Of a stretch of 64,000 bases of DNA, positions 8,398 through 62,513 are shown in pieces (within the stretch, counting starts at the first letter, position 1; each line of letters starts with the position of its first letter). Source of the DNA: Inhella proteolytica (GTDB lineage Bacteria; Pseudomonadota; Gammaproteobacteria; Burkholderiales; Burkholderiaceae_C); assembly GCF_016093275.1 (NCBI RefSeq), contig NZ_JAEDAK010000004.1, forward strand, positions 1-64,000, read 5' to 3'. Both the position numbers and the translations under genes were made by a program. The notes below the pieces were generated by a model that did no database searches, was not told where the DNA came from, and worked only from the letters and a program-made list of their open reading frames with translations.

Positions 8398-9207
8398 ATG
8401 CCCATCCGCGCCATCCTTGCCGACGACGAACGCCTGATGCGCGAGCAACTGCGCGCCCGCCTCGCCGAGGTCTGGCCGGAGCTGGAGATCGTGGCCGAGG
8501 CCAAGAATGGCCTGGAGGCGGTAGAGCTGACCAAGGAGCACAAGCCCGATCTGTGCCTGCTGGACATCCGCATGCCGGGCCTGACGGGCGTCGAGGCGGC
8601 CAAGCAGATCGCCCAGCTGGAAGAGACGGACGACTGGCGCATCCCCGAGATCGTCTTCATCACCGCCTACGACCAGTACGCCGTCGAGGCCTTCGAGCAG
8701 GGCGTGGCCGATTACGTGCTCAAGCCCGCCGAGCGCGAGCGCCTGCAGCTGACGGCGGAACGCATCAAGAAGCGCCTGGCCGCGCGCGATTCAGACGATG
8801 CCGCCGGCGCCACCCCGGCCCAGCCGATCCAACAGCTGCTGCACTCCCTCTCTGCCAAGTTGCAGCCCGGCGGCGTGCCGCGCTACCTCGAATGGATCCA
8901 AGCCACCGTGGGCCAGGAAATCCGCATGATCCCGGTGGCCGAGGTGCTGTTCTTCATCTCGGACGAGAAGTACACGCGAGTGCAGACCGAGCAGATCGAA
9001 GCCCTGATCCGCAAGCCCATCAAGGAGCTGGTGGACGAGCTCGACCCGCATCTGTTCTGGCAGATCCACCGCAGCACGCTGGTGAACGTCAAGGCCATCA
9101 CCGGCATCGGACGCGACTTCCGCGGCCGTCAGCTGGTCTCGGTGAAGGGCGTGAACGAGAAGCTGGAAGTCAGCCGCAGCTACACGCACCTGTTCAAGGG
9201 GATGTAG
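8398..9207 (+). CDS. LytTR-family response regulator
   Basis: 269 residues. The receiver domain (1-120) has acidic residues DDE at 9-11, the phospho-acceptor Asp in LCLLDIRMPG (about 57) and the conserved Lys in VLKPAER (about 108). A linker of about 45 residues leads to a LytTR DNA-binding domain (about 165-265: EVLFFISDEKYTRVQT, FWQIHRSTLVNVKAI). It has an AGGAG site before the ATG and is the third gene of the kinase operon. LytTR proteins bind paired imperfect repeats in target promoters. Its 3' end overlaps the convergent beta-helix gene by 14 bases. Confidence 0.92.
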   Translation: MPIRAILADDERLMREQLRARLAEVWPELEIVAEAKNGLEAVELTKEHKPDLCLLDIRMPGLTGVEAAKQIAQLEETDDWRIPEIVFITAYDQYAVEAFEQGVADYVLKPAERERLQLTAERIKKRLAARDSDDAAGATPAQPIQQLLHSLSAKLQPGGVPRYLEWIQATVGQEIRMIPVAEVLFFISDEKYTRVQTEQIEALIRKPIKELVDELDPHLFWQIHRSTLVNVKAITGIGRDFRGRQLVSVKGVNEKLEVSRSYTHLFKGM

Positions 9208-10462
9208 GCGGCGACTGCGGCAGCTGCTCCAGCGCGGCCTGCGCGTCCTCGGTCTCGGGGCGCCAGCGCTGGTGGCTGGCCACGCTGAGCCGGTTGCCGC
9301 GGCGCGCGTGCAAGGCGGCGCTGCCCACATTGGCCTCGGCATGGGCGCTGGCTTCCTTGCCCCGCACCGTGACGCCACCGCCCCCCAGGAAGCGGTTGCC
9401 GCGCAGCACGACGCCGGCGGACTGGTTGACGTCGAAGCTGCTGTCGTTGCAGTTCAAGACCGTGTTGTCCTCGGCCAGCCCATCCAGGTGCTCGTAGCCG
9501 GCGACGTTCGGGCGCATCAGCTTGGGATCGGTCAACCCGCCGCCGAAGGAAATGCCGATCTGGAAGCCGCCCGGCTCGAAGCCCGGCCGCGGCGCGCACA
9601 CCACCCGGTTGCGCAGGAAGCGCCCGCCCTGGCCGCCGCCCTTCATGAAGAGCGCGTAGCTGATGTGGTCCCCGCCGCCCTTGGCGTAGCCCAGCACGGT
9701 GTTGTCCTCGACCGTCCAGGCGGAGGCGCCGACGAGGTCGAAGGCCACCGTCGGCGCGTCGCCCGGGCGGGGGGCCTGGTTCTCCAGCCAATTGCCCTGC
9801 ACCCGGCCGTGATCCGGCCAGCGGCCACGCTCGCCATTGACCTTGATGGCGGCATTGAAGTTGAGCAGGCGGTTGGCCTGGATCAGGCTGTGGTGGGCGT
9901 CGCCCGCCACCTGCATCGCATGCTCGCAATCGGCCGCGTTGCGGCATCGCCCCTCGATGTGCAGGCCTTCGATGACCCAGTAGGGCTGCGTGAGCTTGAG
10001 GGCCATGACGCCCTGCGCCAGCAGGCGCGCGCCGGGGCGGCCGCGCAGCACGATCGGGGCGTCGGCACGGCCGGCGCGCGGCGTCTGCAGGTAGGCGGCG
10101 ATCGGGTAGTCGCCGGCCTGCAGCTCGATCACATCGCCGGCCTGCGCTTGGTCGAAGGCCGTCCGCAGGGCGGCCACATCGGTCACCCGGACCCAGCGGC
10201 CCTGGGGCACGCGCTCTGGCAGCGCGGGCGGCGGCCAGCTGGCTTGCAGGGCTTGGGTGAGGAGCGGGTGCTGCAGATTCGCACGCCAGGCCTGCGCGCG
10301 GCTGCGCCAGTCGGGGTCCGGCGTGCGCTCCTGCCAGGCCGCCAGCGCCTGGCTCAGCGTGCGGTCCAGCCCCGGCAGCACCGGGTCCGTGCGCCCGAAC
10401 GCCCACAGACCGGCGCTGCCCCCCAGCAGAACGCCCGCGCAACCCAACCACAGCCAGCGCAT
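9194..10462 (-). CDS. right-handed parallel beta-helix protein, PL6/chondroitinase-B-like
   Basis: 422 residues. The N-terminus (RWLWLGCAGVLLGGSAG) is a membrane anchor or signal. From about residue 95 it has the opening typical of PL6 polysaccharide lyases: AAFDQAQAGDVIELQAGDY-type repeats, APIVLRGRPGARL, then many short strands with N at turn positions (RLLNFNAAIKVNG, NTVLGYAKGG, NTVLNCNDSSF, NRFLGGG). It is predicted to act on an acidic polysaccharide in the periplasm, but I could not confirm the lyase Lys/Arg pair, so it may be a binding or non-PL6 helix. Start ATG 10462 is chosen over upstream in-frame codons. Confidence 0.7.
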   Translation of the reverse strand: MRWLWLGCAGVLLGGSAGLWAFGRTDPVLPGLDRTLSQALAAWQERTPDPDWRSRAQAWRANLQHPLLTQALQASWPPPALPERVPQGRWVRVTDVAALRTAFDQAQAGDVIELQAGDYPIAAYLQTPRAGRADAPIVLRGRPGARLLAQGVMALKLTQPYWVIEGLHIEGRCRNAADCEHAMQVAGDAHHSLIQANRLLNFNAAIKVNGERGRWPDHGRVQGNWLENQAPRPGDAPTVAFDLVGASAWTVEDNTVLGYAKGGGDHISYALFMKGGGQGGRFLRNRVVCAPRPGFEPGGFQIGISFGGGLTDPKLMRPNVAGYEHLDGLAEDNTVLNCNDSSFDVNQSAGVVLRGNRFLGGGGVTVRGKEASAHAEANVGSAALHARRGNRLSVASHQRWRPETEDAQAALEQLPQSPPTSP

Positions 10463-23462: not shown

Positions 23463-25523
23463 TCAGATCGCCAGCGGGTCCACGTCGATGGCCCAGCGCG
23501 TCAGCCCCTTGTGCTGGCGCTTGAGCGCGTGCAGCTCAGGCACCCAGGCCGCGAGCGCGCGTTGCAGCGGCGCGCGTTGTGGGCTCTCCACCAGCATCTG
23601 CCAGCGCCACTGGTTGGCCACCTTGGGCACCGGATGGGGCACGGGCGGGTACCAGAACAGGTCGGCGTCCGGAGCCAGCATGCGGCCGGCCTCGGCGGCG
23701 GCCTGCAGGAAGTCGCGGGCCACGAACTCCTCGCGGCTGTCGGCGCGCAGCAGGGCCAGGTGCGCGAAGGGCGGCAGGCCGGCGAGCTGGCGCTCTTCGA
23801 GCTGGCTGGTGGCGAAGGCGACGAAGTCGTGCTTCTGCAAGGCCTGGTAAAGCGGGTGGCGCGGTTGGTGGGTTTGCACCCACATCTCGGCGGCGTGCCC
23901 GGCACGGCCAGCGCGGCCGCCGGCCTGCATCAAGAGCGCGAACAGGCGCTCGGGGGCGCGGAAGTCGCTTGAATAGAGCAGGTTGTCGGGGTTGAGCGCT
24001 GCCACCAGCGTCACGTTGCGGAAGTCGTGGCCCTTGGCAATCATCTGCGTGCCCACCAGCACGTCCACCTCGCCGGCGTGCACGCGCGCCAGCTGGGCTT
24101 CCAGGCTGCCGGCTTTTGCGGTGCTGTCGGCGTCCAGGCGCGCCAGGCGGGCGTGGGGCAGCAGGTGTTCGAGCTGCTCCTCCAGGCGTTCGGTGCCGCG
24201 GCCGATGGGGGCAATGTCCTGGTTGCCGCAGTCCGGGCAGGCGCTGGGCACCCGCTCGGTGAAGCCGCAGTGGTGGCAGCGCAGCGTGCGGTCGCTCTTG
24301 TGGAAGACGCGCCAGGCGCTGCAATGCGGGCAGCCGCTGCGCCAGCTGCACTGGCCGCAGTGCAGCACCGGGGCATAGCCGCGCCGGTTCAAGAGCAGCA
24401 GCGACTGCTCGCCGCGCGCGATGCGCTGTTCGATGGCCTGCAGCAGGGGCGCAGCGAGCGGTGGCGGCGTGGCGCCCGGGCCCTTGGGCGGCGGCAGGCT
24501 GGCCAGATCGAGCAGGCGCACCGTGGGCAGGGGCGCGGCGCCGATGCGCTCGGTCAGATCGACCCGGCGGTAGCGGCCGGTCTGCGCGTTGTGCCAGCTT
24601 TCCAGCGAGGGTGTGGCCGAACCCAGCAGCACCGGGAAGCGCCCGTGGGCGGCGCGCCAGACGGCCAGATCACGCGCCGACTGGCGCGCGCCGTCCTGGG
24701 CCTTGAAGCTGGGATCGTGCTCCTCGTCCACCACGATGAGCCCGAGGCGCGGCAGCGAGGCCATCACCGCCAGGCGCGTGCCCAGCACCAGATCGGCCTG
24801 GCCGCTGTGCGCGCGCAGCCAGTCGCGCAGGCGCTGCGGGGGCGTCAGGCCGGAATGCAGGCAGGCCACGCGCTCCTGCCCGAAGCGCGCCGCAAAGCGG
24901 GCCTGCAGCTGCGGGGTCAGGTTGATCTCGGGCACCAGCACCAGCACCTGGCGCCCCAGGGCCAGGGCCTGGGCGGCGGCGTGCAGGTAGACCTCGGTCT
25001 TGCCGCTGCCCGTCAGGCCCCAGAGCAGCACCGGCTGGGGCGGCACCTCGCCGCGCAGCTGGGCGCTGAGCAGGTCCACCGCGGCCTGCTGGCCGGCTTG
25101 CAGGGCCGGGCCGGCGCCGGGCGCGGCGGCCTCCAGCGCGCCGGGCTGGCGCTTCAGGCGCCGCGCCAGCTGGGTGTCGTCCAGCTGGGCCAGGGTGGGC
25201 GGCAGGGCGGCCAGCGCCAGCTCGCCCAGGCCGCGCTGGTAATAGGCGGCGGCAAAGCGCACCAGGGCGCGCCAGCCGGCGTCCAAGGGCGGCAGATTCA
25301 GCACCCCGGCCAGGGGCTTCAGTTCCACGCCGGGGTCGGGGTCCGGCTCGCCGTCCCACACCACCCCCAGCACCTGGCGCTTGCCCAGCGGCACGCGCAC
25401 CAGGCTGCCGGGCGGCAGGGCCTGGTGGTGGCGGTAGTCCAGCGGCGCACCCAGGCCGCTGTGCTGCGGGGTGGGCACGGCCACCTTCAGCACGACGTCA
25501 CGGGAGTTTGAGGAATCCGTCAC
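23463..25523 (-). CDS. priA: primosomal protein N' (PriA), replication restart helicase
   Basis: 686 residues. An N-terminal 3'-DNA-end binding domain (LGAPLDYRHHQALPPGSLVRV), then SF2 helicase motifs: Walker A LLWGLTGSGKTEVYLH, VPEINLTPQL, DEEHD (VVDEEHDPSFK), GSATPSLESW. The two zinc sites are carried by paired Cys motifs (CGQC, CPHC, CHHC, CPDC). Later motifs include LVGTQMIAKGHDF and QAGGRAGRAG. PriA reloads the replisome at collapsed forks. Start is a GTG at 25523; the promoter region upstream holds a perfect DnaA-box sequence. Confidence 0.95.
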   Translation of the reverse strand: MTDSSNSRDVVLKVAVPTPQHSGLGAPLDYRHHQALPPGSLVRVPLGKRQVLGVVWDGEPDPDPGVELKPLAGVLNLPPLDAGWRALVRFAAAYYQRGLGELALAALPPTLAQLDDTQLARRLKRQPGALEAAAPGAGPALQAGQQAAVDLLSAQLRGEVPPQPVLLWGLTGSGKTEVYLHAAAQALALGRQVLVLVPEINLTPQLQARFAARFGQERVACLHSGLTPPQRLRDWLRAHSGQADLVLGTRLAVMASLPRLGLIVVDEEHDPSFKAQDGARQSARDLAVWRAAHGRFPVLLGSATPSLESWHNAQTGRYRRVDLTERIGAAPLPTVRLLDLASLPPPKGPGATPPPLAAPLLQAIEQRIARGEQSLLLLNRRGYAPVLHCGQCSWRSGCPHCSAWRVFHKSDRTLRCHHCGFTERVPSACPDCGNQDIAPIGRGTERLEEQLEHLLPHARLARLDADSTAKAGSLEAQLARVHAGEVDVLVGTQMIAKGHDFRNVTLVAALNPDNLLYSSDFRAPERLFALLMQAGGRAGRAGHAAEMWVQTHQPRHPLYQALQKHDFVAFATSQLEERQLAGLPPFAHLALLRADSREEFVARDFLQAAAEAGRMLAPDADLFWYPPVPHPVPKVANQWRWQMLVESPQRAPLQRALAAWVPELHALKRQHKGLTRWAIDVDPLAI

Positions 25524-51918: not shown

Positions 51919-52052
51919 TGGCGGGCGGGCCGCCGCTTTACCTTTCATGACGCCAAGGTCACACACGCCAGACCGCGCGCCGCCAGCATGGCAGCCCACG
52001 CCCTCACCCGCGCAGGGCGCCGCACGTTTGCTGACACCCAAGGGTCCTCGTG

Positions 52053-52685
52053 ATGCCTAGACTTGCTCCGTCCCCGCCCGCCCACCCGCCGCGCATGCAG
52101 CACCTGACACCCGAGCAGGTCGCGCTGGTCGACCGCCTGGCGCACAGCCTGTACCAGGTCGTTCCGGCCCGCTACAAGACCTACTGCGCCGTCACGGCCG
52201 GGGTGTGCCTGCGCGTGCTGCAGGCCTGCGGTGTGCCCGCCCAGCTGCAGCCCTGCCAGCTCTGGCACCTCGGCCCGCACCACAACCATGTGATCGGCTT
52301 CATCGGCGGGCGCCACAAGCCGGGCACCTGGGATGGCCATGTGGTCTGTGCTGCGGGGCATCTGCTGATCGAAACCGCCGCCCAGCACTTTGACGTCCAG
52401 TTCGGTCTGCCCTGCCCCTGGGTGGTGGTCACACCGCGCGTGGAGCTGCCCACCCAGGCGCTGGCCCGTGCGGAACTGAGCGAGGGCAACAGCCTGATGT
52501 GGATGCAGCCCCCGCCTGACGTGGACCCCACGCCCCCGCATGAGCCGGACGATCTGGTGCAAGGCCTGGCCCGCCAGCTGCTCGCGCGCCTGCACCCTGC
52601 CGGCGGCCGCGTGGGTGCAGCCTCCCTGCACACGGCGCTGCTGCCCGCTCAGCGACCTGCGACGCGCTCCCAGCTCAAGCCATAG
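52053..52685 (+). CDS. unrecognised protein with possible papain/transglutaminase-like fold
   Basis: 210 residues, no signal peptide. A Cys followed by a helix (YCAVTAGVCLRVLQACGVPA, about 50-68) and a later His before a strand (WDGHVVCAAGHLLIETAAQHF, about 102-120) are in the order of Cys-His peptidase-like folds, but no third residue is certain. The last 50 residues look unstructured. The ATG at 52053 has AAGGG about 9 bases upstream; an ATG at 52095 is an alternative. Its 3' end overlaps the end of rtcR by 37 bases, on the opposite strand. Function unknown. Confidence 0.6.
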   Translation: MPRLAPSPPAHPPRMQHLTPEQVALVDRLAHSLYQVVPARYKTYCAVTAGVCLRVLQACGVPAQLQPCQLWHLGPHHNHVIGFIGGRHKPGTWDGHVVCAAGHLLIETAAQHFDVQFGLPCPWVVVTPRVELPTQALARAELSEGNSLMWMQPPPDVDPTPPHEPDDLVQGLARQLLARLHPAGGRVGAASLHTALLPAQRPATRSQLKP

Positions 52686-54247
52686 CGCCCGAGGTACTTG
52701 CGCAGGCGGTCGGCATCGTTCACCACGCTGCGCTGGGTGCGGCTCACATTGAACAGCTGCCGCCCGGCCTCGCTCAGGCTGGGCGCCTTGGCGCAGACGG
52801 CCAGCACGGCGTCCAGCTGCAGCTGGTCGAAGTGGTCCAGCGCCGCCCAGGCCTCAGGGCCCAGCAAGGCCTCGGCACGCCCCTGCGTGGCCTCGTTCTG
52901 ACGCCGCCACAGCCAGCGCAGGCGCTCGATCTCGGCCTCCACCAGCTCCAGGCCGATGCGCCCGCCCTCGGCCAAGGTGGCCAGGCGGGTGATCGAGGCG
53001 GAGAGATCACGGAAGTTGCCGCGCCAACAAGCCTCGGCGCTGCGCGCAAAGCGCAGGTAGCGCTCGCGCGCCTCCACGTTGAAGCGCGCCACCTGGCCGG
53101 TCTCGCGCGCGTGCAGCTGCAGCAGGTGCTCGATATTGGGCGCGATGTCCTCGCTGCGCTCGGCCAGGCCCGGCAGCGCGTACGTCCAAAGGTTGATGCG
53201 CGCGAACAGGTCGTCGCGGAAGCGCCCGGCGGCCACTTCGGCGCGCAGGTCTCGGTGCGTGCCGGCCACCAGCTGGAAGTCGCTCTCCACCTCGGCGTCG
53301 CTGCCCAGCGGGTAGAAGCGCTTTTCCTCGATGGCCTTGAGCAGCATGGCCTGCTCGTCCAGACCCAGCTCGCCAATCTCGTCCAGGAACAGCAGGCCCT
53401 GGTGGGCGCTGCGCAGATAGCCCGCGCGCTCGGCCTGCGCGCCCGTGTAGGCGCCCTTCTTGTGCCCGAACAGCGCCGAGGCTGCGCCGTCGCCCCTCAA
53501 GGTGGCGCAGTTCACCTCCACGAAGGGCCCGGCGAGCTGGTGGCGCGCCTTCTTCAGTTCGTACATGCGCCGCGCCAGATGCGACTTGCCCGCGCCCGTG
53601 GGCCCGATCAGCAGCACCGGCGCCTTCGAACGCACGGCCACACGCTCCACCTCGTCGATCAAGGCGTTGAAGCGCGGGCTCTGGGTGGCGATGCCGGCCT
53701 TCAGGAAGCTCACCGCATCGGCGTGCGCGCGCTCGAAGCGCTGGGCGATCTGGTCGTACTTGCTCAGGTCCAGATCGATCAGCGCGTAGCTGCCGGGGTT
53801 GCCGGCCTTCTGCTTGCGCGGCGGCGAGGTCTGCAGCAGGGGGCCTGGGATGAAGCGCGCCTCGGCCAGCAAGTACATGCAGATCTGCGCCACATGGGTG
53901 CCGGTGGTGATGTGCACCCAGTAGCGCTCGCGCTCGGTGTCGAAGCGGTAGGCGCGCACCCAGTCGTACAGCGCGGCGTAGACCTCGCCGAAGTCCCAGG
54001 GGTCCTTCAGCGGCATCTCCACGAGGTTCACCGTCGTCTCGGGCGAGACCGTGTGCACATCCGCCGCCACCAACTCGGCCAAGCTGCGGTGCTGGGGCGA
54101 ATACAGCAGCTCGAAGCGCTGCACCGCCATGTCCTCGTGCTGAACGATGGACAGCGTCGGCCGCCACTTCTCCCAGCGCCCGGCACCCTGGCCGGCGTCG
54201 AGCTGGGAGCCGAGGAAGCCGATGACGACGGTTTTCGGGCTAGCCAT
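52649..54247 (-). CDS. rtcR: RtcR, sigma-54-dependent activator of the RNA-repair operon
   Basis: 532 residues, the usual RtcR length. The N-terminal 180 residues form the RtcR regulatory domain, related to CARF-type ligand-binding folds (VVIGFLGSQLDAGQGAGRW, VHITTGTHVAQICMYLLAE). AAA+ domain: Walker A GPTGAGKS at 215-222, the sigma-54 contact loop GAYTGA at 265-270 (consensus GAFTGA), Walker B LLFLDEIGEL near 285-294. The C-terminus ends with a helix-turn-helix (LFNVSRTQRSVVNDADRLRK). It activates rtc genes after RNA damage. Divergent from the operon it should control. Confidence 0.96.
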   Translation of the reverse strand: MASPKTVVIGFLGSQLDAGQGAGRWEKWRPTLSIVQHEDMAVQRFELLYSPQHRSLAELVAADVHTVSPETTVNLVEMPLKDPWDFGEVYAALYDWVRAYRFDTERERYWVHITTGTHVAQICMYLLAEARFIPGPLLQTSPPRKQKAGNPGSYALIDLDLSKYDQIAQRFERAHADAVSFLKAGIATQSPRFNALIDEVERVAVRSKAPVLLIGPTGAGKSHLARRMYELKKARHQLAGPFVEVNCATLRGDGAASALFGHKKGAYTGAQAERAGYLRSAHQGLLFLDEIGELGLDEQAMLLKAIEEKRFYPLGSDAEVESDFQLVAGTHRDLRAEVAAGRFRDDLFARINLWTYALPGLAERSEDIAPNIEHLLQLHARETGQVARFNVEARERYLRFARSAEACWRGNFRDLSASITRLATLAEGGRIGLELVEAEIERLRWLWRRQNEATQGRAEALLGPEAWAALDHFDQLQLDAVLAVCAKAPSLSEAGRQLFNVSRTQRSVVNDADRLRKYLGRYGLSWERVAGR

Positions 54248-54255
54248 TTGGCTAG
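54240..54255. promoter_or_regulatory. palindrome CTAGCC-ATTT-GGCTAG at the rtcR start codon
   Basis: A perfect 6-bp inverted repeat with a 4-base centre spans the rtcR start codon (54245-54247). Its position suggests autoregulation of rtcR or a hairpin at the ribosome site. Basis: seen in sequence; role inferred. Confidence 0.45.
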
Positions 54256-54260
54256 TTTAC

Positions 54261-54288
54261 GAGCTCCATAGATAGCCTCCTTGGAGCT
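54261..54288. promoter_or_regulatory. inverted repeat, candidate RtcR upstream activating site
   Basis: GAGCTCC (54261-54267) and GGAGCT (54283-54288) are inverted partners 15 bases apart, about 85-112 bases upstream of the sigma-54 -24 element. This is the usual distance for an enhancer-binding activator. Confidence 0.4.
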
Positions 54289-54372
54289 GGCTCGGCGATA
54301 AGTGACCGAGACCGGAGGCACGACCAAATCAAATCAATGACTTACAAGATTCGTGACGCACTTGAGCCGGAC

Positions 54373-54388
54373 TGGCACAGCTCCTGCA
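54373..54388 (+). promoter_or_regulatory. sigma-54 (-24/-12) promoter of the rtc operon
   Basis: TGGCACAGCTCCTGCA matches the sigma-54 consensus TGGCAC-N5-TTGCA: GG and GC are correctly spaced and only one of the highly conserved bases differs (CTGC for TTGC). It fits the divergent RtcR activator. Transcription would start at about 54399. Confidence 0.8.
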
Positions 54389-54399
54389 ATGAAGAAGGC

Positions 54400-54530
54400 A
54401 TCGAAACCACCTCCTGGGCGGCCCCTGCCAAACAAGGGCAACCCAAGCGGCCGGGGCCCGGAGCCTCGGACGGTCGGGCCGGCGCAGCACCGTTTCACCA
54501 CGGTTCGGCTGCGCCGGCCAGGCGCCGGGG
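54400..54530 (+). ncRNA. structured leader of the rtc operon, candidate regulatory RNA
   Basis: Between the sigma-54 promoter and the first gene the RNA can fold into an outer 6-bp stem (GGCCCC 54420-54425 with GGGGCC 54453-54458) around a small hairpin (TGCC 54426-54429 with GGCA 54437-54440). A strong hairpin follows at 54477-54519: the 12-bp stem GGCCGGCGCAGC/GCTGCGCCGGCC with ACCG/CGGT inside. There is no T-run, so it is not a classical terminator. It could be a control element or a Y-RNA-like RNA as found in some rtc operons; no match to a known RNA family was made. Confidence 0.45.
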
Positions 54531-54548
54531 GTGACCACTGACCGATCC

Positions 54549-55331
54549 ATGCAAAGCCCCATGTCCACGCCCTCGCTTCTCGCTGCCGTTCAGAACGCCT
54601 ACCGCGTGTTCGGGCGTCGCTCTGCGCCCACCCTGCCGCTGAATGTCTGCACGGGCTGCTGCATGCCACCCGAGCTGGAGCAGGAGATGCGCAGCCTGCC
54701 CCTACAGCAACTGAGCGCCCGCCACTTCTGGGAGTACGCCGATGGTGCGATGGGGGTTCAGCCCGCCGCGGAGATCAAGTACCTGCTGCCGCGCTGGCTG
54801 GAGCTGCTGGCCGAGGGGCACGATCTGCGCCACTCGATCGAGGTCACGCTGGACCGGGTGGGCTGCTGCCCCGCTGACTCGTTCACCGAGGCCGAGCGCG
54901 CCGTACTGAACGACTTCATGCTGGCCTACTTCGACGCCCACATGAGCGGGCAGGCCTGCAGGGAGGGCCAGTGGTACCGGGCCGACGATCCGATCGGCCT
55001 GCTGCTGATGGCGGACTACGCCGGGCTGGAGGTGCGCCCCCTGCTGCAGCACTGGGCTGCGATGGAGCACCCGCAGTCCACCTTGGCCTTCGTGCACGCC
55101 GTCTACTGGGACTACCTGCCCACCGGTGACATCGGCTCGGCCTTCGCGGGTGACCGCCCAGCCTTCCGGGCCCTGATGCGCGAGTGGTTGGAAAGCCCTG
55201 CCACCCAGGCCGCCTTCACGCGCAAGCTGATGGACGCTGATCTGTTGGCCCGGGTTGCCCAGCACCCGCCCTGGGGCCACACCGCCATCGCCACCATGGT
55301 CGACGCCGTGTTCGACCACCTGACTCTCTGA
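54549..55331 (+). CDS. unrecognised Cys-rich protein, first gene of the rtc operon
   Basis: 260 residues from ATG 54549 (GTG 54531 and ATG 54561 are alternatives). No signal peptide or membrane segment; mostly helical. The notable motif LNVCTGCCMPPELEQEMR has C34, C37 and C38 (counted from 54549), and VGCC has C106-C107, which may bind zinc or another metal. HFWEYADGAMG follows near 59-69. I do not recognise the family. It is the first gene after the sigma-54 promoter and 31 bases before rtcB, so it should be induced with the RNA ligase. A role in RNA repair is inferred from context. Confidence 0.8.
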   Translation: MQSPMSTPSLLAAVQNAYRVFGRRSAPTLPLNVCTGCCMPPELEQEMRSLPLQQLSARHFWEYADGAMGVQPAAEIKYLLPRWLELLAEGHDLRHSIEVTLDRVGCCPADSFTEAERAVLNDFMLAYFDAHMSGQACREGQWYRADDPIGLLLMADYAGLEVRPLLQHWAAMEHPQSTLAFVHAVYWDYLPTGDIGSAFAGDRPAFRALMREWLESPATQAAFTRKLMDADLLARVAQHPPWGHTAIATMVDAVFDHLTL

Positions 55332-55362
55332 GAACAATCCCACAAGAAGCCCAAGGAGCCCC

Positions 55363-56574
55363 ATGAACTACAACGAACTCAAACCCGCCGGCGGCGTGCC
55401 CGTCAAGATGTGGACGAAAGGCGTCCCTGTCGAGGCCGACGCCCAAAAGCAACTGGCCAACGCCGCCCAGTTGCCCATCGTCTTCAAGCACATCGCCGCC
55501 ATGCCGGACGTGCACCTCGGCATCGGCGCCACCATCGGCTCGGTGATCCCCACGCTCAAGGCCATCATTCCGGCCGCGGTGGGGGTGGACATCGGCTGCG
55601 GAATGATGGCCTGCAAGACCACCCTGCGTGCCGAAGATTTGCCCGACAACCTGGCCCCGTTGCGCAGCGCCATCGAGCGCGCCGTGCCGCACGGCCGCAC
55701 CCCGGGGCCGCGCGACGTGGGCGCCTGGGACACCCCGCCCGAGACGGTGGACCAGATCTGGTCCGGCCTGGTGGGCGAGTTCGAGCAAATCTGCGAGAAG
55801 CACCCGCGCCTCAAGAACACCAACAACCGCAAGCACCTCGGAACCCTGGGAACCGGCAACCACTTCATCGAGGTCTGCCTGGATGAGCTGGGCTTCGTCT
55901 GGTTCATGCTGCACAGCGGTTCGCGCGGGGTGGGAAACGCCATCGGCAACCACTTCATCGAACTGGCGAAGAAGGACGCCGAGCTGCACCAGCGCAACCT
56001 GCCGGACAAGGACCTGGCCTACTTCGACGAAGGCGCGCAGTACTTCGGCGACTACGTGCAGGCCGTGGGCTGGGCGCAGCGCTTCGCGCAGAAGAACCGC
56101 GAAGTGATGATGGCCAATCTGATCGCCGTGGTGAAGAAGGTCATCACCAAGCCGTTCGAGAGCCACATCGAAGCGGTGAACTGCCACCACAACTACGTGC
56201 AGCAGGAGCGCCACTTCGGTGAAGACGTGTTCGTGACCCGCAAGGGCGCGGTGAGCGCGAAGAAGGGGCAGCTGGGGATCATTCCGGGCTCGATGGGGGC
56301 GCGCTCCTACATCGTGCGAGGGAAGGGGAACCCCGAAAGCTTCGAGAGCTGCTCACACGGCGCCGGCCGCACGATGAGCCGCACCGCGGCGAAGAAGCGC
56401 TACACGGTGGCCGATCAGATCAAGGCCACCGAGGGCGTGGAGTGCCGCAAGGACGCCGACGTGATCGACGAGATCCCGATGGCCTACAAGGACATCGATG
56501 CGGTGATGGCGGCGCAGGAGGATTTGGTGGAGGTGGTGCATACCTTGAAGCAGGTGGTGTGCGTTAAGGGCTGA
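55363..56574 (+). CDS. rtcB: RtcB, GTP-dependent 3'-5' RNA ligase
   Basis: 403 residues, the bacterial RtcB length. Joins RNA 3'-phosphate or 2',3'-cyclic phosphate ends to 5'-OH ends. The Mn-binding and catalytic residues are readable: D76 and C79 in GVDIGCGM, H167 in GTGNHFIE, H184 in MLHSGSRG, H275/H276 in VNCHHNY and the guanylated His332 in ESCSHGAGRTMSR. Ribosome site AAGGAG before ATG 55363. Second gene of the operon; the transcription control by RtcR is inferred from the divergent regulator and the promoter. Confidence 0.97.
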   Translation: MNYNELKPAGGVPVKMWTKGVPVEADAQKQLANAAQLPIVFKHIAAMPDVHLGIGATIGSVIPTLKAIIPAAVGVDIGCGMMACKTTLRAEDLPDNLAPLRSAIERAVPHGRTPGPRDVGAWDTPPETVDQIWSGLVGEFEQICEKHPRLKNTNNRKHLGTLGTGNHFIEVCLDELGFVWFMLHSGSRGVGNAIGNHFIELAKKDAELHQRNLPDKDLAYFDEGAQYFGDYVQAVGWAQRFAQKNREVMMANLIAVVKKVITKPFESHIEAVNCHHNYVQQERHFGEDVFVTRKGAVSAKKGQLGIIPGSMGARSYIVRGKGNPESFESCSHGAGRTMSRTAAKKRYTVADQIKATEGVECRKDADVIDEIPMAYKDIDAVMAAQEDLVEVVHTLKQVVCVKG

Positions 56575-56586
56575 GATGGGACCGAG

Positions 56587-56644
56587 GACAGCTCTGAGGG
56601 CTGTCTGACGCCCATCGAAGGACACGCCGCGTCCCGCGCGGCGT
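56587..56644 (+). other. two hairpins in the gap between rtcB and the zinc-ribbon gene
   Basis: GACAGC-TCTGAGG-GCTGTC (56587-56605) and ACGCCGCG-TCCCG-CGCGGCGT (56624-56644) lie in the 126-base gap after rtcB, with no T-run. They may slow read-through, protect rtcB mRNA or form part of a small RNA. Confidence 0.45.
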
Positions 56645-56700
56645 GGCTGGGGAGCTGGTGTCAGTACGGCAGGCCGGCAATCGTCGAAGAGCAGGTGAGT

Positions 56701-57309
56701 ATGAAAAGCAACAAGCAACGCCGCCAGGAAATCAAGGCCCGCCGCCACCAGCGCGCAATGGCGATGAACACGGCCAAGCCCGGCCAGCGCACCCAGGCCG
56801 TGTCGGCCGACGCCGTGCCCGCGGATCCCGCCAAACTCACCCACAACAACACCTACGGCCTGTTGCCTCGCTTCTATCTGGATCGTCCCTTTGTGTGCCG
56901 CGACTGCAGCGCCGAAGCGGTCTGGACCGGCACGCAGCAGAAGTGGTGGTACGAGGAGTTGCAGAAGCCCATTGCCTCCCAAGCAGTACGCTGCCTCGAC
57001 TGCCGCCGCGCAAGGCGGCAGCTGGTGGAGGCAAGCGGCGACGCCGCATTGCGACTTCGTTGTGAGGTGCAAGCATTGCGAGCGCTCGGCGATCGGGAGC
57101 CGACACCGAACGCTCGTGCAAGCGCAGAAGCAGCCCTGCACTCGAAGTGGGATGGCTTGCGCGTCACCGCCGTCAAGGTCCTGTGCCGCTGGAGCGATGT
57201 CGAATCGCTGCGGAAAGCCAGCGAGGCCGCGATGCGCGAATGCGCGGAAGGCCGCCGCACCGACGCCGGCCACGCAATGAACAAGGTGCTCGCTATGCGG
57301 CGGGCCTAG
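56701..57309 (+). CDS. zinc-ribbon domain protein in the rtc operon
   Basis: 202 residues. A basic N-terminus (KSNKQRRQEIKARRHQR) suggests nucleic-acid contact. A zinc ribbon follows with C66, C69, C98 and C101 around KWWYEELQKPI, matching the probable zinc-ribbon (zf-trcl) family. The C-terminal third is helical. The ATG at 56701 is used. It lies between rtcB and the RlaP-type gene, with an 11-base gap to the latter. A role in binding RNA or a repair partner is inferred from operon position. Confidence 0.82.
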   Translation: MKSNKQRRQEIKARRHQRAMAMNTAKPGQRTQAVSADAVPADPAKLTHNNTYGLLPRFYLDRPFVCRDCSAEAVWTGTQQKWWYEELQKPIASQAVRCLDCRRARRQLVEASGDAALRLRCEVQALRALGDREPTPNARASAEAALHSKWDGLRVTAVKVLCRWSDVESLRKASEAAMRECAEGRRTDAGHAMNKVLAMRRA

Positions 57310-57320
57310 CAAGAACTCAC

Positions 57321-58130
57321 ATGAAGAACAACAAGCTCTTCACCGCCCACCCCATCGCCCCCGCCACCCGCGAGCGCATTGACCACGAACTCGCCCGCAT
57401 CGAAACCGAGCACGAGGTCCAGATCCTCTACGCCTGCGAATCTGGCAGCCGCGCCTGGGGCTTCGCCTCGCCAGACAGCGATTACGACGTGCGCTTCGTC
57501 TATCTGCGCCGGCCCGCGCGCTACCTGACGGTGCGACCGGAGCGCGAGGTCATCGAGTGCCCGATCGACGCCGAGCTGGACATCAGCGGCTGGGACCTGC
57601 GCAAGGCGCTGGAGCTGGGCGGTGAGTCCAACCCCACGCTGCTGGAGTGGCTGCGCTCGCCGGTGGTCTACCGCCAGCACGCCCAACGCGCCGCGCAACT
57701 GCGCGAACTGACCGAGCGCTTCTTTGCGCGCGACCGGGCCTACCACCACTATGTGTCGATGGCACGCAAGAACGACCGCGAGCACCTGAAGGGCGAAACG
57801 GTGCGGCTGAAGAAATACCTGTACGTGCTGCGTCCGCTGCTGGCGGCGCGCTGGCTGCGCGAGCGCAGCGATGCGCCGCCGATGGTGTTTGCCGAGCTGG
57901 CGGAAAGCGTGCTGCATGAAGCCGAGCTGATCGACGCCATCAACGAGCTGCTGGCCGTAAAGATGCGCGCCGGCGAGGCCGAGCGCGGTGCCGCGCGGCC
58001 GGCGCTGCGCGCCTTCATCGACCGCGAGCTGGAACGGGCGACGCAGCAGGCGCCCGCCAAAGGCGAGCGGCAGCCGTTCGCGGCCCTGGATGCCTTCCTG
58101 GCCGACTGCGTGCTGAATCAACTGCGGTGA
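57321..58130 (+). CDS. RlaP/YcgL-type nucleotidyltransferase
   Basis: 269 residues. DNA-polymerase-beta-fold nucleotidyltransferase: G42-S43 in GSRAWGFASPDSDYDVRFVY, with metal-binding D54 and D56, and further acidic residues in IDAELDISGWDLRK. The long helical part is rich in Arg/Lys (KNDREHLKGETVRLKKYLY). Family PF10127 (RlaP) is linked to RNA-repair genes in comparative genomics, so it may add or trim nucleotides on RNA ends before RtcB or RtcA acts. ATG 57321 is 11 bases after the previous stop. Activity not known directly. Confidence 0.85.
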   Translation: MKNNKLFTAHPIAPATRERIDHELARIETEHEVQILYACESGSRAWGFASPDSDYDVRFVYLRRPARYLTVRPEREVIECPIDAELDISGWDLRKALELGGESNPTLLEWLRSPVVYRQHAQRAAQLRELTERFFARDRAYHHYVSMARKNDREHLKGETVRLKKYLYVLRPLLAARWLRERSDAPPMVFAELAESVLHEAELIDAINELLAVKMRAGEAERGAARPALRAFIDRELERATQQAPAKGERQPFAALDAFLADCVLNQLR

Positions 58131-58143
58131 TTGACTGACTTCA

Positions 58144-59505
58144 ATGCATTCGTTTCCATTCAAGGACTGGCTGAGGCAACTGCGCGAGCGTGCGGGGTCC
58201 GCCACAGAACTCACACGTTCACTTCACTGCCCGCCCACCTCGTGGCTGCACTGGATCGAGGACTGCACCTCGACCAACGGCTATCGCAGGGAAGATGCGC
58301 TGAAGCGCATTGCCGGACTTCCTGTCGAAGTCCGCGCCCAGGCGCTCCGCTTCGTGCTGGCCCGACTGAACGACTGGGTCGCCCCCGTGCGCACCGCAGC
58401 GAATACGGCCGCCATCGCCCTGCTCGTCGATGACCTGGAGTTGGTCTGGATCGAGGAGCTGCCAGCCGTCGTAGCCCTGCTGCGTGCTGGGCGATCGGAT
58501 CAGCGCGCATTCATCGAGCAGGTTCAGACCTTCTTCTTTTCGAGCCCCTCGCGCCGTCGGGCGTTGATGCAGGCCATGCCAAGCTACGGCGTGGCTGCTC
58601 GCCGCTGGGTCGCGCAATCTGGATGGCTCGCCGGCACGCTCCCAGAACGCACCCAGGGCCTTGTGGCCGCACTGACCGGACCTGACGCCGTGGTGGCGCG
58701 CGCCGCGCTGGCAGTCGCGCTCGCAGCGGACTCCGAGTTCAGCAGCCGCCCCGAGGTGCTGGCCGCTTTGAACCAGATCCGCTTGCCACGCCTGCGCCTG
58801 CTGGTGCTAAGGCAACGCCAAGCCGAAGGGCAGTTCCCTCCGCCCGATGCCGTCGCCTTGGCGTTGGGGCCGCACCGGGCAACGCGCGAGTGGCTTTGTT
58901 TTCACGCCGACACAGCGCTCAAGGAGCGCCTGCGTGAGGCCTGCGTCAGCGCGCTGAGCGGCAGCTGCTCAGACAGACCTTCGGGCCTGCGCGGGGCCGC
59001 CCTTGAAACCCTTTACCTGGTCGATTCGCGCGCCTGCCAACCCTGGATCTCGTCCCTACAGACAGATGCGGAGCCCCGCACACGCCTGTCGGCCTTCCAT
59101 CTGGCGCTGAAGGCTGCATCAGGCACGGAAAGGGGCGCCCTGGCACTCCGGACACTGGCAGACCCAGCACCCAAACTTCGCAAGCTGGGCGTTCGAGCCA
59201 TTCGCCGGGGACATGCGCTGTGCGACACAAGCCAGCTGCTGGCATTGGGCCGGGAGCATCCCGATGCATGGCCCCAGGTTCTGAGTGCGGCGCAGGTGTT
59301 TGGAGCTGTCGCTGGCCTGCGAATGGTCCTGCAGTTGACCCTGCTGCGGAACGAGATCCCCAAGCATTTGCATCGGGCCCTCCACGCTGCAAGCGCACGG
59401 CTGCGGCGCAGTGTGTATGCGCCCAGCGAGTCCGAATCAGTCGAGCTTGCCGCCTTGTGGAGCCAGGCGATTACCAAACACCCAAATCTCAAAGAAGCCC
59501 AATGA
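58144..59505 (+). CDS. alpha-solenoid (HEAT-like) protein in the rtc operon
   Basis: 453 residues, nearly all helical, with repeat-like helix pairs of about 35-40 residues (for example GLPVEVRAQALRFVLARLND near 58, ARAALAVALAADSEFSSRPE near 181, LGVRAIRRGHA near 365). No enzyme motif. Alpha-solenoids usually bind proteins or RNA. Its ATG lies 13 bases after the upstream stop, and its stop overlaps the rtcA start (ATGA). Its codon and base use are less GC-rich than its neighbours, which suggests separate acquisition. Confidence 0.78.
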   Translation: MHSFPFKDWLRQLRERAGSATELTRSLHCPPTSWLHWIEDCTSTNGYRREDALKRIAGLPVEVRAQALRFVLARLNDWVAPVRTAANTAAIALLVDDLELVWIEELPAVVALLRAGRSDQRAFIEQVQTFFFSSPSRRRALMQAMPSYGVAARRWVAQSGWLAGTLPERTQGLVAALTGPDAVVARAALAVALAADSEFSSRPEVLAALNQIRLPRLRLLVLRQRQAEGQFPPPDAVALALGPHRATREWLCFHADTALKERLREACVSALSGSCSDRPSGLRGAALETLYLVDSRACQPWISSLQTDAEPRTRLSAFHLALKAASGTERGALALRTLADPAPKLRKLGVRAIRRGHALCDTSQLLALGREHPDAWPQVLSAAQVFGAVAGLRMVLQLTLLRNEIPKHLHRALHAASARLRRSVYAPSESESVELAALWSQAITKHPNLKEAQ

Positions 59506-60611
59506 TCGACATCGACGCCTCCGCCGGCGAAGGCGGCGGCCAGGTGCTGCGCAGCAGCCTGAGCCTGTCCCTGCTCACCGGCACCCCCATCACCCTGACC
59601 GGCATCCGCGGGCGCCGCCCCAAGCCGGGGCTGATGCGCCAGCACCTGACCTGCGTGCAGGCCGCCCAGGCCATCGCACCGGGCGCGACCGTGCAGGGCG
59701 CGGAGCTGGGTTCGCAGCAACTGCGCTTCGTGCCGGCCCCCGTGCAGCCCGGCGCCTACCGCTTCGAGATCGCCACCGCCGGCTCCTGCCTGCTGGTGCT
59801 GCAGACCGTCTGGCTGCCGCTGGCCCTGGCCGGCGGCGCCAGCGAGCTGGAGCTGAGCGGCGGCACGCACAACCCGATGGCGCCGCCCTTCCCCTTCATC
59901 GAGCAGGCCTTTGCGCCCCTGCTGGCGCGCCTGGGCGCGCCAGCTGAGCTGGAGCTGCAGCGCGCCGGCTTCTATCCGGCGGGTGGCGGGCGCCTGAAGG
60001 TTCGCATCGCGCCGGCGGCGGCGCTGCAGCCCTTTGATCTGCTCGAACCGGGCGCACTGAAGGCGCGCCGCGCCCAGGCGATGGCGCCGGGGCTGCCGCG
60101 CTCGATTGCCGAGCGCGAGCTGCAGACCTTGGCCGGCCAGCTGGACTGGCCGGGTGATGCACTCGAGGTACTGCCCTGCCGCCAGAACGAGGGCCCGGGC
60201 AACGCGCTTTGGGCCCGGCTGGAGCATGAGGTGCTGACCGAACTGTTCTGCGCCTTCGGTGAGAAGGGCCGCACCGCCGAGGACGTGGCGCGCGAGGTGG
60301 CGCGCGCCGTGCAGCGCCACCAGCAGACCGGCGCGGCCCTGGGGCCGCAGCTGGCCGACCAGTGGCTGCTGCCGCTGGCCCTGGCCGTGGCTCAATCTGG
60401 CAGGGGAGCGACATTCAGCGCCAGCGAGTGGACCGAGCACGCACGCACCAATGCCGGGCTGGTCGAACGATTCCTGCCCGTGGTGATGCACGTCACCAAG
60501 GCGCAGGGAAATGCGGTGCGTGTCGAATTGCTGCCCCGCCCCCTGGGCCAGAATTCGCGCCCTGACCCGCCCGGCACCCGGCCGCGCGGCAGCTGGTTTG
60601 GAAATTCGTGA
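59502..60611 (+). CDS. rtcA: RtcA, RNA 3'-terminal phosphate cyclase
   Basis: 369 residues. Converts RNA 3'-phosphate to 2',3'-cyclic phosphate with ATP. Features: IDIDASAGEGGGQVLRSSLS near the start, GLMRQHLTCVQA, FYPAGGGRLKV near 157-167, and the catalytic His313 in WTEHARTN, which carries AMP. The last 20 residues (PRPLGQNSRPDPPGTRPRGS) are an unstructured tail longer than in E. coli. The ATG overlaps the solenoid gene stop. In the classical locus rtcA directly follows rtcB; here three genes lie between. Confidence 0.95.
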   Translation: MIDIDASAGEGGGQVLRSSLSLSLLTGTPITLTGIRGRRPKPGLMRQHLTCVQAAQAIAPGATVQGAELGSQQLRFVPAPVQPGAYRFEIATAGSCLLVLQTVWLPLALAGGASELELSGGTHNPMAPPFPFIEQAFAPLLARLGAPAELELQRAGFYPAGGGRLKVRIAPAAALQPFDLLEPGALKARRAQAMAPGLPRSIAERELQTLAGQLDWPGDALEVLPCRQNEGPGNALWARLEHEVLTELFCAFGEKGRTAEDVAREVARAVQRHQQTGAALGPQLADQWLLPLALAVAQSGRGATFSASEWTEHARTNAGLVERFLPVVMHVTKAQGNAVRVELLPRPLGQNSRPDPPGTRPRGSWFGNS

Positions 60612-61567
60612 TGAAGCAAGTGATGGCCAAGCGCATGGCGCTGAAGGTGGCGGCCCTGGTCGCCGGGGTGATGCTGGCGGGCGCCTCCGCGGCGCAAACC
60701 GCGCCCACCGTGGGAACGATCGTGCGCGTGGCCACGGACAAAGGCCCGATCGACATCCAGCTCTACGACACCGATGCACCCGCCACGGTGGCGAACTTCC
60801 TCAGCTATGTGCGCAAGGGCGCCTACACCGGCGGGCTGCTGCATCGCTCGGTAAAAAACTTCGTCATCCAGGGAGGCGGCTTCAGTTTCAATGAGGACAG
60901 CAACCCGCGTATGGCCTCCATCCCGACCGACGCGCCGGTGAACAACGAGTTCAACGCCGCGCGCTCGAATGTCCGCGGAACCATCGCCATGGCCAAGCTC
61001 GACAACGCGCCCAATAGCGCGACGAGCCAGTGGTTCGTGAACCTGGCCAACAACGGTGCGGGCGCCAGCACCAATCTGGACAGCAACAACGGCGGGTACA
61101 CCGTGTTCGGCCGCATCAGCACACCCAGCATGGCGACCGTGGATGCGCTGGCAGCCCTGCCCACGGTAGATGCCCGGGCCTGCACCACGACGCTGGGCCC
61201 CCAGGCCACGGCACTGGCCACCCTGCCGCTGGCCCAGCCCCTGGTGCCGGTGACCTGCGCCAACATCAAAGCCGTCAACGTGGTGCAGATGCGCTGGGCC
61301 AAGGAACTGCCTGCCAAGGCCACGAGCACGGACACCGACCGCGTGCTGAACTACCTGGAGGCGATGTACCCGCAGCACATCGCCCCGGCCAGCCCGACCA
61401 CGCAGACGGCCCAGGGCTACACCTACCGCTACTACGCCGGCACCAATGCCCATGTGGGCAGCAAGGACGGCGTCGTGTACTACTTGGTGCCCGCCGTCAG
61501 CGCCGAGATCCAGACCCTCGGCCCGCTGGCCGAGCTGCTGCAGCAGGCGGCTGCCGCCGGCTACTGA
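60611..61567 (+). CDS. secreted cyclophilin-type peptidyl-prolyl isomerase, first copy
   Basis: 318 residues. Signal-type N-terminus (ALKVAALVAGVMLAGASAAQ), then a cyclophilin domain (TDKGPIDIQLYDTDAPATVA, NFLSYVRKGAY, NSATSQWFVNLANN, YTVFGRI) at about 38-190. From about 230 an extra domain (VLNYLEAMYPQHIAP, GYTYRYYAGTNAHVGSKDG, VVYYLVPAVSA) ends in a helix LLQQAAAAGY. The ATG shares a base with the rtcA stop, so it is translationally coupled to RNA repair, though a periplasmic foldase has no clear link to it. Confidence 0.85.
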   Translation: MKQVMAKRMALKVAALVAGVMLAGASAAQTAPTVGTIVRVATDKGPIDIQLYDTDAPATVANFLSYVRKGAYTGGLLHRSVKNFVIQGGGFSFNEDSNPRMASIPTDAPVNNEFNAARSNVRGTIAMAKLDNAPNSATSQWFVNLANNGAGASTNLDSNNGGYTVFGRISTPSMATVDALAALPTVDARACTTTLGPQATALATLPLAQPLVPVTCANIKAVNVVQMRWAKELPAKATSTDTDRVLNYLEAMYPQHIAPASPTTQTAQGYTYRYYAGTNAHVGSKDGVVYYLVPAVSAEIQTLGPLAELLQQAAAAGY

Positions 61568-61577
61568 GGAGCCGGGC

Positions 61578-62513
61578 ATGAACGCAAAGGCTCCCCAAGG
61601 CCTGCTGCGCCTCGGCACCGCGCTGCTGGCTGGTCTGCTGCTGGCCGGTGCGGCCGCGGCGCAAACCGTGGGCACCACCGTGCGCGTGGCCACGGACAAA
61701 GGCCCGATCGACATCCAGCTTTACGACAGCGCCGCCCCCGCCACGGTGACGAACTTCCTCAATTACGTGCGCCGCGGCGCCTACGACGGGGTGTTCTTCC
61801 ACCGCCTGTCGCTGGGTTTCGTGCTGCAGGGTGGCGGCTTCAAGTTCAGCGACGGCGCAGCACCGCGTGTCTCCGCCATTGCGCAGGACCCGCCGGTGGT
61901 GAATGAGTTCAGCGCCACGCGCTCGAACCTGCGCGGCACGGTGGCCATGGCCAAGCTGGGCGGCAATCCCAACAGCGCCACCAACCAGTGGTTCATCAAC
62001 CTGACCAACAACGCCAGCAATCTGGACGGCCAGAACGGCGGCTTCACGGTATTCGGCCGCATCAGCACGCCCGGCATGGCCACGGTGGATGCGCTGGCCG
62101 CGCTGAACACTGTCAATGCCGCCGGCTGCACGAATGCGCTGGGAAGCCAGGCCGGGGCGATGGGCGAGCTGCCACTGATCAAGGCCCTGAGCAGCCTGAG
62201 CTGCGACGCCATCCGCAACGAGAACCTGGTAGTGATGCGCTCGGTCAAGGAACTGCCGAAACCCTCCGCCAGCTCCGACTCGGACCGCATCTTCAACTAC
62301 CTGGAAGCCGCCTATCCGCAGTACGCGGCGCCGGCCAGTGCGCCCACGCTCAGCGCGCTGGGCTACACCTACCGCTACTACGCCAACACCCAGGCCTATG
62401 TGGGCACCAAGGACGGCGAGGTCTTCTATCTGGTGCCGGCCCTCAGCAGCAACATCACGAAGCTGGCCTCGATGGCCGAGTTGCTGCAGCAGGCGGCTGC
62501 GGCCGGCTACTGA
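61578..62513 (+). CDS. secreted cyclophilin-type peptidyl-prolyl isomerase, second copy
   Basis: 311 residues. A tandem paralogue of the preceding gene: same signal, cyclophilin core (DKGPIDIQLYDSAAPATVTN, FFHRLSLGFVLQGGGFKF, NSATNQWFINL) and the same C-terminal domain (FNYLEAAYPQYAAP, GYTYRYYANTQAYVGTKDGE, ending LLQQAAAAGY). ATG 61578 has GAGGAG upstream. Ends immediately before the stop of the convergent cupin gene. The active-site segment FFHR is kept here, while copy 1 has LLHR. Confidence 0.87.
   Translation: MNAKAPQGLLRLGTALLAGLLLAGAAAAQTVGTTVRVATDKGPIDIQLYDSAAPATVTNFLNYVRRGAYDGVFFHRLSLGFVLQGGGFKFSDGAAPRVSAIAQDPPVVNEFSATRSNLRGTVAMAKLGGNPNSATNQWFINLTNNASNLDGQNGGFTVFGRISTPGMATVDALAALNTVNAAGCTNALGSQAGAMGELPLIKALSSLSCDAIRNENLVVMRSVKELPKPSASSDSDRIFNYLEAAYPQYAAPASAPTLSALGYTYRYYANTQAYVGTKDGEVFYLVPALSSNITKLASMAELLQQAAAAGY

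Follow-up and report, generated by a model that had tools for sequence, protein, structure and literature searches.

The 64,000-nucleotide stretch of Inhella proteolytica DNA analysed here (contig NZ_JAEDAK010000004.1, positions 1 to 64,000; hereafter the window) carries an RNA-repair cassette that spans positions 52649-60611 and ends with rtcA. It consists of rtcR and, divergent from it, the genes geneX-rtcB-treble clef-rlaP-sol-rtcA, where geneX and sol are labels coined in this analysis for two genes whose products gave no Pfam match at E-values up to 1. We propose, with a probability of about 0.55, that this is an RtcR/sigma-54 RNA-repair cassette in which geneX, the treble-clef protein, RlaP and sol act as repair partners, the role of these additional genes being one that we infer.

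The gene order had been claimed in an earlier reading made from the letters and open reading frames only (the sequence-only reading). It was borne out by the frame layout and by family searches, and so were the identities of RtcR, RtcB and RtcA, by Pfam and NF models and by motif segments that we take to be characteristic of these proteins and of RlaP (Table 1). RtcR scores 821.6 bits against NF038308 (cut-off 650), contains both the Walker A segment GPTGAGKS and the segment GAYTGA, and combines CARF, AAA+ and HTH domains in a gene divergent from rtcB and rtcA, which is the arrangement of an RtcR-regulated RNA-repair operon. RtcB, the sole match to its family in the genome, has the metal-site and guanylylated His segments of the ligase (DIGCG, GNHF, LHSGSRG, HHN and HGAGR), in a PDB alignment the His of EHARTN in RtcA falls on the His segment of the E. 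coli protein, and RlaP reaches 315.2 bits against PF10127 (cut-off 23) in addition to having the nucleotidyltransferase motif GS...D.D. The claimed spacing of 11-31 bases or overlaps also held, with gaps of 31 (geneX-rtcB), 11 and 13 bases and overlaps of 4 bases between sol and rtcA and between rtcA and the cyclophilin gene behind it. The one larger gap, given as 126 bases after rtcB, has that length if the treble-clef gene starts at the ATG at 56701 and measures 120 bases from its GTG start.

Table 1. Features of the RNA-repair cassette and its flanks (positions in the window).
Feature	Position	Strand	Remarks
rtcR	52649..54247	-	CARF-AAA-HTH sigma-54 activator; PF06956 E 1.4e-83, PF00158 E 1.1e-49
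-24/-12 promoter (putative) TGGCACAGCTCCTGCA	54373..54388	+	126 bases from rtcR start, about 160 upstream of geneX
geneX	54549..55331	+	260 amino acids, all-helical (model), N-terminal Cys cluster; possible alternative start 54531 or 54561
rtcB, RNA ligase	55363..56574	+	PF01139 E 1.5e-127; PDB alignment; motifs
Dispersed two-hairpin palindromic repeat (part)	56575..56660	+	first 86 bases of the rtcB-treble clef gap
Treble-clef (zf_Tbcl) protein	56695..57309	+	204 amino acids from GTG; PF13451 E 3.3e-15
rlaP, RlaP nucleotidyltransferase	57321..58130	+	PF10127 E 4.6e-94; motif intact
sol	58144..59505	+	453 amino acids, HEAT-like helical repeat protein
rtcA, RNA 3'-phosphate cyclase	59502..60611	+	NF003246 386.5 bits (cut-off 352; scanned from 59505); TIGR03399 above cut-off
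Left-flank gene	52050..52685	+	function not assigned; 41% identical homologue in locus L154
Cyclophilin 1	60608..61567	+	PF00160 E 1.2e-34; flank, outside cassette
Cyclophilin 2	61578..62513	+	PF00160 (scanned from 61446); flank

The claim of sigma-54 control is supported by the putative promoter between rtcR and geneX, which is conserved. The site agrees at 10 of 12 positions with the pattern that we take to be the -24/-12 consensus, and the two strands of the window hold 18 equally good sites and none better. Among 64 other RtcR loci, a site scoring at least 10 was found in 59, lying 74-268 bases away from the start of rtcR and in 50 of these 59 at 130-170 bases; five loci (L032, L036, L059, L061 and L102) had no site of at least 10.

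These 64 loci were taken from 63 further genomes and form a census drawn from a sample of the same order and a sample of the same family, in which 36 of 300 and 39 of 250 genomes, respectively, matched RtcR, the genome under study being counted in each. Features were called on the operon strand with iterated models. The census left out the window's own locus, the weak matches of the order sample (G046, G054, G209 and G298) and of the family sample (G739, G747 and G782), G655 of the family sample, which ends at a contig edge, two duplicates (L084 of L126 and L085 of L122) and a weak RtcR-like one (L094). Some incomplete or odd loci were retained, among others L044, L045, L047, L049 and L040, in which rtcR is split.

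Within the census rtcB was found in 58 loci, rtcA in 49, rlaP in 30, Ro in 29, Band7 in 21, the treble clef in 16, sol in five and geneX in two. As controls, 40 stretches of 17.5 kb were drawn from other parts of genomes with RtcR; none of these models, nor that of rtcR, matched in them, so the grouping of the genes is more than chance. The first labelled feature of the operon was Ro in 27 loci, Band7 in 19, rtcB in 12, a treble clef in four and another feature in one, with none in the last. Co-occurrence with rtcB and rtcA, a check set beforehand, thus supports RlaP and the treble-clef protein and weakly supports sol and geneX, which recur in the right position. Enlargement of the operon is common in the sample (Ro or Band7 in 49/64 loci), and extra genes in RtcR operons are the rule in it. 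geneX, treble clef, RlaP and sol occurred together in none of the 64 loci. Six loci had no labelled operon-strand rtcB in reach (L058, L059, L124, L032, L036 and the incomplete L047), some of them with Ro or Band7.

The product of geneX had been called Cys-rich, which overstates six Cys in 260 residues; an N-terminal cluster (C34, C37 and C38) is conserved in most relatives and missing in some (L106, L136 and L141). The alignment (A4) holds 14 of 15 relatives, L137 being left out. The protein is confidently modelled as all-helical (predicted local distance difference test, pLDDT, 89.7; predicted template modelling score, pTM, 0.89). Searches with this fold gave best E-values of 0.97 in PDB and 1.3 in BFVD; the PDB result would fit a fold not yet solved, although a solved one may have been overlooked by the search. 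Sequence searches returned no solved relative with an E-value of 1 or less.

On the operon strand, geneX occurs in the census loci L098 and L120, and L106 has a copy on the opposite strand, about 400 bases beyond rtcA. In genome_contigs we found geneX at 15 loci, four of them RtcR operons and two of them with other repair genes beside it. Two RtcR loci of Pelomonas (L128 and L129) have the order Ro-geneX-rtcB-rtcA and two of Vandammella (L130 and L131) contain Band7, geneX, rtcB and sol; L129 is L098 and L130 is L120, and these are not independent of the census cases. In L131 an ADP-ribosylglycohydrolase gene (9069-10046; PF03747 E 7.1e-59) stands between geneX and rtcB. In Flavivirga (L140) geneX has an RtcB gene on either side, the second of them followed by an RF-1-domain gene, and in Ferruginibacter (L135) it is found with Band7, HEPN_AbiV and two RlaP frames. 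Relatives also occur on Deinococcus plasmids and in E. coli, whose version (L066 5992-6759) has a DNA-level match in 2996 of 5426 complete genomes and is called hypothetical in the five annotations inspected. A four-sequence profile matched five of the 300 order genomes, namely our own and four of one genus, and in those four none of the rtc-type models matched near geneX. A single-sequence search of 274 genomes of the class returned our own and one weak match with an in-frame stop (L065), which was not used, and no match was found in viral_contigs.

Both the sol profile and the structural model of sol (pLDDT 73.6) resemble alphaRep and HEAT proteins, and Pfam HEAT_2 is matched by six of eight members of the family, the window's own sol not among them. 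With the window sequence as query, sol was found in five of 249 other family genomes, the two strongest matches (G720 and G639) lying in RtcR operons. The profile found 17 of the 250 family genomes at 1e-6, five of them below 1e-120 and the next at 5e-17; four of the five strong members (G000, which is our own genome, and G720, G639 and G658) are in RtcR operons and the fifth, G651, is elsewhere. sol stands between rtcB or rlaP and rtcA in four further loci, L034, L043, L126 and L122 (as rtcB-sol in the last), the copies in L034 and L043 being found only with the iterated model, and in L120 the order rtcB-sol has no labelled rtcA behind. A DNA-pattern search of genome_contigs for sol gave 22 stretches, none of which proved to be a sol relative.

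It is possible, though somewhat unlikely, that we are dealing with an ordinary RtcR-RtcB-RlaP-RtcA operon into which geneX and sol have come as passengers, from gene pools that are mobile or evolve fast, and that neither takes part in repair. Several findings lean this way or weigh against the partnership that we propose. Both genes are rare in RtcR operons (geneX 2/64, sol 5/64) and occur elsewhere too, and HEAT-like proteins are generic. Nine of the 15 geneX loci match none of the other models, and one of these nine is L127, whose geneX is nearest in sequence at 48% identity. The E. coli relative has, in the one record inspected (L066), glg/glp-type genes around it and is separated from rtcR by about 4 kb containing other genes. 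G651 has RtcR, yet its sol lies away from the RtcR operon, and in the order sample the window sol sequence finds, besides itself, only G269, again away from its RtcR. The association of sol with RtcR is modest (3/38 RtcR genomes versus 2/211 others, p 0.026, own genome excluded and genomes not independent), and the sol profile was built partly from RtcR loci. Against passengers stands the placement of the two genes here, overlapping or near-contiguous with their neighbours, and sol comes back after rtcB or rlaP in the five loci named above, just as geneX comes back beside RtcB or RlaP in two Bacteroidota.

On the reading that we favour, with geneX and sol as repair partners, the cassette would be switched on when the CARF domain of RtcR senses RNA cleavage products, as published for Salmonella; RtcR is reported to be controlled by damaged tRNAs (PMC7790460) and RtcAB to bind the RtcR CARF domain (PMC9650030). 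RtcR and sigma-54 polymerase at 54373 would then turn on geneX-rtcB-treble clef-rlaP-sol-rtcA. RtcA cyclises 3'-phosphate ends, RtcB joins 2',3'-cyclic phosphate or 3'-phosphate ends to 5'-OH ends, and an enzyme of the polymerase-beta type extends a 3'-OH. The linear order proposed in the sequence-only reading (add nucleotides, cyclise, ligate) is chemically doubtful, because RtcB uses a 3'-phosphate or 2',3'-cyclic phosphate and could not join a nucleotide added to a 3'-OH without a further step. On this argument RlaP would most likely work on a branch parallel to RtcB, not directly upstream of it, and refill 3'-OH ends, for example where the 3' end of a tRNA has been trimmed. It has been predicted to restore lost nucleotides before ligation (PMC7824862; similarly PMC6514570). 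The treble-clef protein, geneX and sol would most likely be non-catalytic helpers, the first two binding damaged RNA or ribosomes and sol scaffolding the enzymes.

A more specific version of this scheme starts from the position of geneX, which occupies the first-gene slot held by Ro or Band7 in 46 of the 64 related loci. geneX would be a dedicated and so far undescribed partner in RtcB-type repair, serving both Pseudomonadota and Bacteroidota and having a helical fold for which no relative has been solved. It would recognise what has been damaged, be it a tRNA cut by a nuclease or a stalled ribosome, and pass this substrate to RtcB, replacing Ro/Y RNA or Band7, while sol would hold RtcB, RlaP and RtcA together as one complex. 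We put this forward tentatively and consider it unlikely to be right as a whole.

The company that geneX keeps in other genomes also raises the idea of an anti-phage or anti-toxin island, the purpose of which would be to mend RNA after cleavage by nucleases that phages or competitors trigger, with the extra genes as adaptors for particular cuts. geneX shares its locus with an HEPN_AbiV gene in L135; in L140 its neighbours are RtcB and RF-1-domain genes, which in turn have a WYL-domain gene beside them. In E. coli an RtcB2-PrfH operon reportedly gives protection from colicin E3 (PMC9223846). Against this, PADLOC matched only RtcR (by RtcR, CARF and weaker AAA-type models) and, weakly, RlaP (PDC-S09, E 0.005), and family-model scans of the window proteins matched no nuclease family within the cassette. 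We regard such an island as improbable.

The right boundary of the cassette differs from that of the sequence-only reading, which had taken the cyclophilin gene behind rtcA as a member of the operon and the pathway. A second cyclophilin gene, absent from that account, starts 10 bases after the first; the two products are 62% identical (194/311) and, by inspection of the sequence, both have starts resembling signal peptides. No cyclophilin was found in any of 75 loci searched, the 64 RtcR loci among them. RtcR matched in two of six genomes of the genus including our own, the other match being weak (3.2e-6). In G572, a congener without RtcR, homologues of the left flank extend as far as the 52050-52685 gene, whose counterpart ends at 8504 of L154, 164 bases before the start of a cyclophilin match at 8668. 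Since cyclophilin lies beside the left flank in a genome without RtcR, the cyclophilin genes belong to the backbone and the cassette ends at 60611. A cyclophilin in the repair pathway was thus rejected, a case in which adjacency alone was misleading. The cassette is absent from this place in G572, and it may have been gained here or lost there.

The gap after rtcB was considered as a promoter or terminator and rejected as such: simple scans of the + strand found no sigma-70-like or terminator-like site, and the gap holds a dispersed repeat instead. Its 86-base part recurs at six further places in the genome with 74-85% identity, a pair of them near each other on contig C40, and on folding 56575-56694 forms two strong hairpins (z -2.57). 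Rfam found no known RNA in the cassette, the only hit being a sub-threshold snoRNA-type match at 52259-52307, which lies outside it; between 50000 and 64000 the search returned no Y RNA with an E-value of 1 or less. Y RNA matches (YrlA, RF02553) follow the Ro gene at L128 7666-7795, in an operon with geneX, and at L126 6687-6816, in an operon with sol.

Arrays of tRNA genes stand beside the RtcR operon in five of the 60 census loci scanned (all but L044, L045, L047 and L124), with 22 genes in L051, 25 in L098, 14 in L103, eight in L114 and six in L097. The 40 control stretches had at most one tRNA gene each (7/40 with one), and the association of arrays of six or more with RtcR is no more than suggestive (Fisher p 0.073). 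Rfam found five tRNAs at L128 12017-12553, and the window has one tRNA-Pro, at 25029. In Anabaena, a 26-tRNA operon and rtcB are both reported to be under one repressor, TrcR (PMC10272220).

Like the rtcR-rtcBA system of E. coli and Salmonella, the window has a divergent RtcR, a sigma-54 promoter, RtcB and RtcA, to which RlaP, the treble clef, geneX and sol are added. The Salmonella operon has Ro (rsr) and Y RNA, whereas the window operon gave no Ro match and no Y RNA match, and the cassette falls outside the Ro/Y RNA type of RtcR operon, which is defined by a TROVE gene and a Y RNA. With the RlaP RNA-repair systems of Burroughs and Aravind (PMC6514570, PMC7824862) it shares a true RlaP in an RNA-ligase operon; geneX and sol are not named in the parts of these papers available to us. 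Extra genes in RtcR operons are already known, as is RlaP in RNA repair. Neither geneX nor sol was recognised in the open-licence literature, itself available in part and not covering Burroughs and Aravind 2016, and their recurrence in a few RtcR operons is possibly new. As recurrent members of RtcR operons, with their varied extra genes, the two offer handles for finding the substrate and partners of bacterial RtcB. Compared with the RFH (PrfH)-RtcB loci (PMC6514570), the window has no release-factor match, its repeat protein is HEAT-like and not TPR, and its nucleotidyltransferase is RlaP. Those loci likewise accrete a repeat protein, a nucleotidyltransferase and a zinc protein around RtcB, and geneX itself is found in an RtcB/RF-1-domain locus, L140.

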